Shown piece after piece: positions 24,731-26,198 of a stretch of 64,000 bases of DNA. The stretch covers positions 7,760-71,759 of the forward strand of contig NZ_JAPSHY010000011.1 of NCBI RefSeq assembly GCF_031179285.1. Reading direction: 5' to 3'. The position numbers and the translations under genes were made by a program. This stretch comes from Microbacterium sp. Its GTDB lineage: Bacteria > Actinomycetota > Actinomycetes > Actinomycetales > Microbacteriaceae. The notes beneath the pieces were generated by a model. That model saw only the letters and a list, made by a program, of their open reading frames with translations, had not been told where the DNA came from and did not search any database. Position 1 is the stretch's first letter, and every line of letters begins with the position of its first letter.

Positions 24731-24865
24731 CGTGACCCCACTTCTGTCGTGAAACCCCACTCTGTCGTGAGACTCCACTTCTGTCGTGAAACCCCACTTC
24801 TGTCGTGAGACTCCACGCCGGGCATGGTGTCTCACGCGAAAACCGAAGTCTCGCTCACGACGCCG
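24731..24865. repeat. 19-bp-period array, module A
   Basis: Part of a 505-nt gene-free stretch. Units beginning CGTGA start at 24731, 24748, 24766, 24785 and 24804 (spacing 17, 18, 19, 19) with core CGTGARACYCCACTTCTGT. The last unit (GTGAGACTCCA) is answered by an inverted copy TGGTGTCTCAC at 24825, starting a 41-nt tail that ends ACGCCG at 24865. No reading frame here looks coding. Confidence 0.9.
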
Positions 24866-24869
24866 TCTC

Positions 24870-25023
24870 GAGACACCACATCTGCCACCAGACACCACAT
24901 CTGCCACGAGACACCATCTCGAGCACGAGACGCCACTGCCGTCATCAAACCCCGCCTGCGTTGTGAGACACCACGCCATGCATGGGGTCTCACGCGAATA
25001 CCTGCGTCTCGCTCACCACGCCG
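24870..25023. repeat. 19-bp-period array, module B
   Basis: Units of exactly 19 bp start at 24870, 24889, 24908, 24927, 24946 and 24965. The first reads GAGACACCACATCTGCCAC; the conserved part is GAGACNCCAC. It ends with an inverted unit and a 41-nt tail at 24983-25023 that is nearly identical to the tail of module A, 158 bp further on. Confidence 0.9.
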
Positions 25024-25041
25024 CCTCGCCTCACCACCCGC

Positions 25042-25070
25042 ACTTCTCCTCCACCGATGAGGAGTGAAGT
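25042..25070. repeat. Hairpin before the DUF559-type gene
   Basis: ACTTCTCCTC at 25042-25051 pairs with GAGGAGTGAAGT at 25059-25070 with a one- to two-base bulge and a 7-nt loop. It may be a terminator for the flanking arrays or the end of the repeat element; function is not known. Confidence 0.5.
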
Positions 25071-25134
25071 CGTCTGTTCACACGTGCGGTGAATGACGAC
25101 GCGAGGACGCTGGGCGGGCGGCGAGGATGCCGGG

Positions 25135-26106
25135 ATGCCGTTGCTCCTCTCCGATCGCGCTGTGACCGAATCGCCGGTGCCGATCATCACCGCCGCCGAA
25201 GCGCGTTCCCTCGGCCTCCGCCTCTCGGGGCACGCGTGGCGACGCGTCCGCGTCGGGATGTATGTCGAACGCAACGCATTCGAAAAGCTCCCGCCCTGGC
25301 AGCGTTACGCGGTCCGGGTCCATGCCTTCGCACGCGCTCACCCGGATGCCGCGCTATGCCTCGAATCCGCCGCAGTCGTGCAGGGTCTTCCGCTGTTCGG
25401 CGAGCCGCGCGACATCCATGTGTTCGATCCCGATCGCCGCACGTCGCGCCGGTTCGGCGACGTTGTCGTGCACACCAGCATCCTGCCTCGCAGCGTCGAG
25501 CGCGTGCGCGGCGTGCTGGTGACGCGGCCGCTCGAGACGGTGTCCGATCTCGCGCGTGCTCTGCCACCGGCGCAGGCGCTGGCGACCGCGGACAGTGCGG
25601 TCTCGCCGGCACAGGGTGGCGGCCTTCGGGTCGAAGATCTCCAGGCCTTCACGGACAGCGTCCCGGACCGGCGCGGGCGCGCACGCGCACGATGGGTCTG
25701 GGAGCGCGCCGACGGACGCGCGGAGTCGCCGGCGGAGAGCATCAGCCGTGCCGTCATCGAATGGAGCGGGTTCGAAACGCCCGAGCTCCAGCGGGAGTTC
25801 CGCTACGACGGCCACCTCGACCGCGTCGACTTTCATTTCCCATCATGCGACGCGATCGGCGAGTCAGACGGCTGGCAGAAGTATCAGCTCGACGACGGTG
25901 CGTCAGCCGCGCGGCGACTCGCCGACGAGAAGCGTCGCGAAGACAGACTCCGGCGTAACGGCCACGCCTTCGCCAGATGGGACCTCGCGGATGCCTGGCG
26001 GGTGGCCCCGCTCGTGCGCGCACTCTCGTCCGCCGGTGTGCAGCAGACCGCCCCGGCGCAGTCAGCGATGCTGGCGTCGTTCGCCCGCACGGCGTTCTCC
26101 GCGTGA
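25135..26106 (+). CDS. DUF559 / AbiEi-like protein with putative nuclease fold
   Basis: A protein of 323 aa (337 aa if the ATG at 25093 is used). The N-terminal part (ITAAEARSLGLRLSGHAWRR, then GMYV) resembles the AbiEi-antitoxin-type winged helix domain of many actinobacterial proteins. The C-terminal part (PAESISRAVIEWSGFETPEL, then HLDRVDFHFP, and GESDGWQKY) resembles a DUF559/Vsr-like PD-(D/E)XK nuclease, with Glu, Asp and Glu spaced like the usual acidic residues. No toxin partner is next to it. Repeat arrays flank it on both sides and its TGA stop lies inside the first downstream repeat unit. Function is not established. Confidence 0.75.
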   Translation: MPLLLSDRAVTESPVPIITAAEARSLGLRLSGHAWRRVRVGMYVERNAFEKLPPWQRYAVRVHAFARAHPDAALCLESAAVVQGLPLFGEPRDIHVFDPDRRTSRRFGDVVVHTSILPRSVERVRGVLVTRPLETVSDLARALPPAQALATADSAVSPAQGGGLRVEDLQAFTDSVPDRRGRARARWVWERADGRAESPAESISRAVIEWSGFETPELQREFRYDGHLDRVDFHFPSCDAIGESDGWQKYQLDDGASAARRLADEKRREDRLRRNGHAFARWDLADAWRVAPLVRALSSAGVQQTAPAQSAMLASFARTAFSA

Positions 26107-26198
26107 GACACCACTTTCCGCGCGAGACACCTCACCCCACCTGGTGTTTCGCGCCGCGACTGGCGTTTCACGCCGCGACTGGTGTGTCAGACAGAAGC
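26103..26198. repeat. 19-bp-period array downstream of the DUF559-type gene
   Basis: Two direct units (GAGACACC...) start at 26105 and 26124. Three inverted units (TGGTGTTTC-like) start at 26142, 26161 and 26180. All spacings within an orientation are 19 bp. The core is the same GAGACACCAC as upstream, and the array begins within the stop codon of the gene. Confidence 0.88.

Follow-up and report, generated by a model that had tools for sequence, protein, structure and literature searches.

Results

An AbiEi-like gene between arrays of a 19-bp unit

The window analysed here, a 64,000-nucleotide stretch of a Microbacterium sp. contig (NZ_JAPSHY010000011.1, assembly GCF_031179285.1), contains a gene for an AbiEi-like protein with a predicted nuclease domain, which lies between arrays of a short repeat (Table 1). 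We scanned the window for the repeat core GAGACNCCAC, allowing ≤ 2 mismatches, and found + strand units at 24732-24816 and 24870-24974, upstream of the gene, in steps of 19 bp except for one of 18 bp and one of 38 bp, the latter representing a missing unit. Both upstream runs close with a reverse-complement unit 17 bp past the start of the last forward unit, and downstream of the gene two forward units are followed by three reverse units; every array, on either side, turns into its own reverse complement, a feature which the first-pass annotation did not mention. The whole window contains 15 paired core sites (19 bp apart or at the 17-bp turn), all 15 of which flank this one gene, and the reversed core, used as a control, gave 3 paired sites, within the same array. 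Tandem Repeats Finder gave the first array the top score in the window (152; 129 at a shorter period). The first-pass annotation had described 19-bp-period units on both sides of the gene and had placed its stop codon (TGA, 26104-26106) within the first downstream unit, and both statements are confirmed. Direct repeat D3 (24769-24879 versus 24927-25037, 111 nt, 79%) makes the upstream side look like a duplicated element.

The AF2 model of the protein has an AbiEi-like N-terminal half and a C-terminal half resembling the homing endonuclease I-Bth0305I and Vsr, with a homing endonuclease domain as the highest VIA-align match of the latter. The AbiEi-type DNA-binding fold (PADLOC models and fold matches) and the catalytic-domain fold of EDxHD homing endonucleases (fold comparison) are thus both present in the predicted protein, the two-domain fold and the active site being predictions. 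PADLOC AbiEi models matched the N-terminal half in 28 of 31 family members (two commonest models), and Pfam AbiEi_4 matched 2 of the 31. Six residues of the predicted nuclease domain, E215, D246, E257, D259, K263 and W296, are invariant in all 31 members (alignment A1). Searches of Pfam, NCBIfam and PDB sequences did not place the window protein in any usable family, and no Pfam family reached its cut-off, DUF559 included; the DUF559/Vsr-like nuclease residues proposed earlier therefore stand as a relationship in fold and not at sequence level. No Pfam match to a Y1 (HUH) transposase domain was found in the window protein or in any of the 31 members. At the window locus there is no AbiEii toxin gene beside the gene, whose neighbours, according to Pfam, encode a regulator of the LacI type and an acetyl xylan esterase (AXE1). 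An alternative start, ATG 25135, would give a protein of 323 aa, the length of database copy P0001. The named database relatives are mostly from Microbacterium, and genes of the family are currently annotated as "hypothetical protein" or "AbiEi antitoxin". Two members (L091 and L118) have frames which are broken before the homology ends.

Table 1 Coordinates of the gene and its flanking elements in the window.
Feature	Position	Strand	Description	Basis
Upstream element 1	24732..24833	no strand	forward units 24732, 24751, 24769, 24788, 24807; reverse unit (turn) 24824-24833	core scan, Tandem Repeats Finder, inverted pair I1
Upstream element 2	24870..24991	no strand	forward units 24870, 24889, 24908, 24927, 24965; reverse unit (turn) 24982-24991	core scan, Tandem Repeats Finder, direct repeat D3
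AbiEi-like/EDxHD-nuclease-like protein	25093..26106	+	337 aa from ATG 25093	open reading frame, AF2 model, fold matches
Predicted nuclease domain	25720..26046	+	window residues about 210-318 (model residues 196-304 plus 14)	
Downstream element	26105..26188	no strand	forward units 26105, 26124; reverse units 26141, 26160 (3 mismatches), 26179	core scan, direct repeats D5/D14

Repeats accompany the gene family

A search for relatives of the protein in 99 genus genomes, including the one that holds the window, was positive in 87. We took flanks of 4.5 kb, clipped at contig ends, from 60 closer and 20 more distant members among the matches listed. For the 60 closer members plus the window gene, the GAGACACCAC core formed 106 paired sites at a distance of up to 500 bp (60 kb), versus 7 in the 468 kb beyond; the reversed core gave 3 paired sites near the genes and 2 farther out. 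There were no paired sites of this core at the 20 more distant members, and many members are thus without it. A search with GAGACNCCAC alone likewise misses much of the family, because the repeat sequence varies from gene to gene. As a sole search, the exact hairpin GAGACACCAC-N5..9-GTGGTGTCTC was found in 6 of 149 genus genomes, the window's own not among them, and would have led to rejection.

Because the repeat sequence differs between genes, we used a sequence-free test, the local match of the upstream flank to the downstream flank with a threshold score of 20. Direct matches at or above the threshold were found at 59 of 74 loci, compared to 0 of 74 window pairs taken 2 kb off. When a match in either orientation was allowed, measured from stop codons, 64 of the 80 testable loci passed (one more was too short), comprising 47 of the 60 in the closer group, to which the window is counted, and 17 of 20 more distant ones; random cross-locus pairs reached 20 in 104 of 2000 cases in this test. 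A self-reverse-complement score ≥ 20 was obtained for 31 of 64 elements and never for shuffled copies.

A set of 79 loci from named organisms, mostly Microbacterium with Cellulomonas, Arthrobacter, Georgenia, Zhihengliuella and Galactobacter, overlaps the first genus set and so serves as a check with names and is not independent. Its flanks matched in 50 of 72 testable loci (7 too short) versus 0 of 65 far windows, and runs of self-matches at a lag of 19 bp numbered 130 near genes versus 3 far from them. With rplK as a control gene the flanks matched in 0 of 30 cases. The first-pass annotation had pictured a nuclease-like gene with members of its own repeat family on either side, arranged like RAYT without a Y1 transposase, and had looked to arrays clustering beside DUF559 genes as its test; the relatives support this layout, the clustering is seen against both the far-window and the rplK controls, and the absence of arrays from close orthologues, which it had named as counter-evidence, was not observed.

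The repeats are largely private to each gene. The four other family members in the window's genome are flanked by repeats of other sequences, two of them clear, with direct scores of 47 and 48.5, one slightly short of the threshold at 19, and one weak, with scores of 13 (direct) and 16 (inverted); far windows scored ≤ 15.5. Among loci with a clear element, elements that share a chromosomal position group but come from different genomes matched at ≥ 20 in 19 of 297 pairs, those from different position groups in 4 of 1290 pairs, and none of the 9 pairs from within one genome reached this score. The copies on either side of a gene therefore usually agree, and those at orthologous positions in other species are mostly unlike them.

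Geometry of the elements

Self-matches at a lag of 19 bp were found 177 times in the 64 kb near the genes, at 59 of 81 loci, and 4 times in 124 kb far from them. Other lags between 10 and 40 bp gave ≤ 39 near genes, and the far windows peaked solely at multiples of three, with up to 59. Of the 46 same-strand distances between GAGA[CA] units that fell in the range 10-39 bp, 30 were 19 bp, and of the 41 spans to an inverted [GT]TCTC in the range 18-39 bp, 36 were 27 bp; the far windows gave 1 such case each. An ideal genus element is 10-9-10-7-10-9-10 bp, and some arrays, including those in the window, hold extra units. This geometry of 19-bp units and a 27-bp turn is common within the genus though the sequences differ from gene to gene. 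One locus (L116) departs from the 19-bp period of the genus arrays, with 8 copies of TCCGGCGGTCC repeated every 16 bp at 227-339 bp upstream of the matched gene start.

In genome G035, all 20 copies among the matches listed have an 8-11-8 spacing, and their spacers vary freely. Spacer complementarity across the axis was 0.512, versus 0.602 for shuffled spacers (495 of 500 shuffles reach the observed value), for this one family and with copies picked by BLAST rank, which favours equal lengths. This result tends to favour double-stranded half-sites over a conserved single-stranded or RNA hairpin.

Dispersed copies, gain and loss

The window's genome (3.59 Mb in 79 contigs) contains 24 occurrences of GAGACNCCACG compared to 6 of the reversed pattern. 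The array-turn-array design was seen at 12 of the 15 places read in this genome (not at L027, L028 and L041), and 12 of the 13 array loci seen lie away from the gene. Arrays far from the gene had been named beforehand as evidence against a link between the two; most of the arrays seen in this genome are indeed dispersed, as repetitive extragenic palindromic (REP) elements are too, and the association with the gene stands in the relatives. At L032 (G000:C35), around locus positions 1620-1760, a second inverted repeat (GAGAAACGTC units) and a direct repeat, ATGCTGAAACTCCTGTCTCGGCAG, lie beside the GAGACACCAC array.

We joined 14 elements into one query and searched their 13 source genomes. All 13 contained matches, and 12 of them held 16 to 73 among the matches listed; these are upper figures, because both strands of a palindrome and the gene-flanking copies are counted and the elements of other genomes are not separated. 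G067 and G035 each held 20 places among the matches listed, gene-flanking copies included, with local alignment scores of 52-71 of 71 and 52-94 of 94, respectively. An open-frame count over 40 dispersed copies cannot separate intergenic from coding positions at this G+C content.

Gain and loss were compared for solo elements of one family in G076 and G036, which are 93% identical at the locus compared, with G042 as the outgroup. For seven of the nine G076 sites tested first, both flanks were located in G036; the element was absent from G036 at five of these (L278, L280, L286, L290 and L292) and present, by coordinates, at two (L284 and L289). Two further sites (L293/L281 and L295/L285) look common to both genomes by eye. 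At L286, L290 and L292 the element is found in G076 only, which points to gain, and at L278 the outgroup also carries it, which points to loss in G036; the direction at L280 is not polarised by G042. The element of L298 is also absent in G036, and in a comparison of G036 with G042 the G036 element L277 is absent in the latter. At the G042 locus orthologous to L277 (L481), the place of the element is taken by another inverted array, made up of GAGCCACC units, which may represent a further element family at this site.

Gene position and breadth

Grouping of the genus loci by neighbouring genes gave 214 locus pairs with common neighbours on both sides, and the three largest position clusters contained 18, 18 and 13 loci. 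In the four members of the third cluster which were read, the genes on either side are nusG and rplK. The position of the window copy is common to no other fetched locus. The suggestion in the first-pass annotation of a mobile or repeat-binding unit calls for a correction here: the gene is mostly fixed in position, and so it is the scattered element, rather than the gene, which is seen to come and go. At two nusG-rplK intergenic sites (L351 and L359) other palindromes are present without that position's family gene, as if the spot collects them.

For broader searches we used the alignment of 31 members, which is too diverged for a back-translated scan. It gave matches in 89 of 119 order-level genomes and in 49 of 198 genomes from the phylum. 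Flanks scored ≥ 20 at 17 of 28 testable loci at order level (2 too short; a few repeat earlier loci) and at 14 of 26 loci of the phylum draw (1 too short), with no far control reaching 20 in either. Lag-19 runs in the order draw numbered 37 near genes versus 5 far. One member from the same class has a 62-bp palindrome whose two copies differ at one place.

Discussion

We found a gene which lies between copies of a dispersed palindromic repeat, and somewhat more probably than otherwise its product binds and cuts these copies, which would thereby reach new sites and stay alike. A bolder reading, to which we give a probability of roughly 60%, is that these pairs form a phylum-wide, undescribed class of genome-resident repeat systems in Actinomycetota, in which an AbiEi-EDxHD nuclease recognises its cognate palindrome as double-stranded DNA, distributes it over the chromosome and rewrites the copies in step, with several separate gene/repeat pairs per genome. 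Under the first reading, the N-terminal half would recognise half-sites in double-stranded DNA, the C-terminal half would nick or cut at or beside the element, and repair or replicative recombination may then copy the element into the break, giving new solo copies and homogenising old ones. The gene itself would mostly stay put and be vertically inherited, as in RAYT.

It should be noted that several observations weigh against the first reading. Flanks fell below the threshold at 16 of 80 genus loci (among these the window itself, at 18.0), 22 of 72 named loci, 11 of 28 order-level loci and 12 of 26 loci of the phylum draw. The phylum draw gave a single lag-19 run, and the 19-bp spacing is therefore not phylum-wide. 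One of the 13 genomes searched for dispersed copies (G098) had only 4 matches. Two of the putative active-site residues, D246 and K263, are at least 90% conserved and not invariant among 88 close relatives in a larger alignment. Spacer divergence blurs the insertion junctions, no target duplication is readable, and no single cognate element was seen by eye as a scar at the nusG-rplK site in genomes without the gene (nusG recognised in 9 of 30 genomes; intergenic 104-624 bp). Because cutting every dispersed copy would break the cell's own chromosome, cutting must be conditional or single-stranded; we infer the binding, cutting and copying by the protein.

The protein may instead be a regulator or nucleoid organiser, with the elements as operator or anchoring sites, the gene controlling itself via its flanking copies and the nuclease-like half structural or dormant. 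AbiEi proteins are described as autoregulators which bind inverted repeats (PMC7319586), and fixed spacing with free spacers is how a set of protein-binding half-sites would look. However, the putative active-site residues are invariant across the 31 divergent members and a dead nuclease would not need them, autoregulation needs no copy downstream of the gene, and whole elements are gained and lost between close species and differ in sequence between species, unlike conserved operators; we consider this explanation unlikely, though a serious one. That the gene is an AbiE (type IV toxin-antitoxin) antitoxin with promoter repeats is scarcely credible, even with the AbiEi matches of its N-terminal half in PADLOC models and in fold, given the LacI-type regulator and esterase in place of an AbiEii toxin beside the window gene, the repeats on both sides and elsewhere in the genome, and the additional nuclease-fold domain.

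A homing gene, whose nuclease spreads the gene by cutting chromosomes with a bare element, would leave element-gene-element after repair, and solo elements would be its empty targets. A gene between two like elements is the expected product of such repair into an element, the best match of the C-terminal half is to a homing endonuclease domain, and the window copy has a position of its own. Most fetched genus members, however, are at a few conserved positions, so that movement of the gene is rare; inspection by eye of the 9 readable nusG-rplK intergenic regions (of 30 genomes) showed no bare cognate element, and dispersed elements would turn the whole genome into a target. We regard homing as improbable. 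There is very little chance that the elements are ordinary REP-like repeats which an unrelated enzyme moves and which gather beside the gene for another reason, such as tolerated insertion. The other palindromes at nusG-rplK in genomes without that position's gene are in keeping with this idea, but the same family stands on both flanks of a gene, paralogues in one genome carry different families, and neither distant flanks nor rplK flanks show anything alike.

REPIN/RAYT is among the closest known systems. RAYT genes mostly stay put and are vertically inherited, and RAYT is, to our knowledge, the one bacterial enzyme family known to be paired with its own dispersed extragenic palindromes. According to PMC3116915, the RAYT gene is flanked by a short palindromic element which is dispersed in the same genome, mostly as inverted doublets, and element groups are tied to particular genes; we likewise observed dispersed palindromic repeats of which copies stand on both sides of the gene they belong to. 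The enzyme here, however, has an AbiEi-like part and a PD-(D/E)XK/EDxHD-like fold, the arms of the genus element have two units each at a 19-bp period, and the spacer letters show no covariation across the axis (in one family), which may point to double-stranded half-sites rather than a single-stranded hairpin. As no Y1 domain was found, the system is not a member of RAYT; it is like REPIN/RAYT in its layout and in how it behaves in populations, the enzyme is unrelated, and the DNA is perhaps read in another way. The AbiEi antitoxins of S. agalactiae (6y8q) and M. tuberculosis (Rv2827c, 1zel) differ from the protein here, which has a further nuclease-fold domain at its C terminus; the window gene also has no AbiEii gene next to it, and matching sites are dispersed through the genome. 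I-Bth0305I (an EDxHD homing endonuclease) and Vsr (a mismatch nicking enzyme) are alike at fold level; here the domain is fused to an AbiEi-like half and the gene is flanked by palindromic elements and was not seen in an intron or intein. We found no report of this gene/repeat pairing in the open-licence literature, judged mostly from abstracts, which does not prove its absence from print, and no paper there had "DUF559" and "AbiEi" together.

Most tested genes of the family in one phylum are enclosed by a private repeat, and this is possibly a new kind of resident, or tamed, DNA parasite. The spread of such repeats is described as poorly understood (PMC8266576). If our reading is true, these genes would represent a second solution, unrelated to RAYT and in another phylum, which perhaps reads its repeat as double-stranded DNA rather than as a hairpin. 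Many natural protein/repeat pairs would be open to comparison, genes now named "hypothetical protein" or "AbiEi antitoxin" would gain a testable job, and each pair would offer a candidate module for sequence-specific DNA binding whose candidate target is already known.
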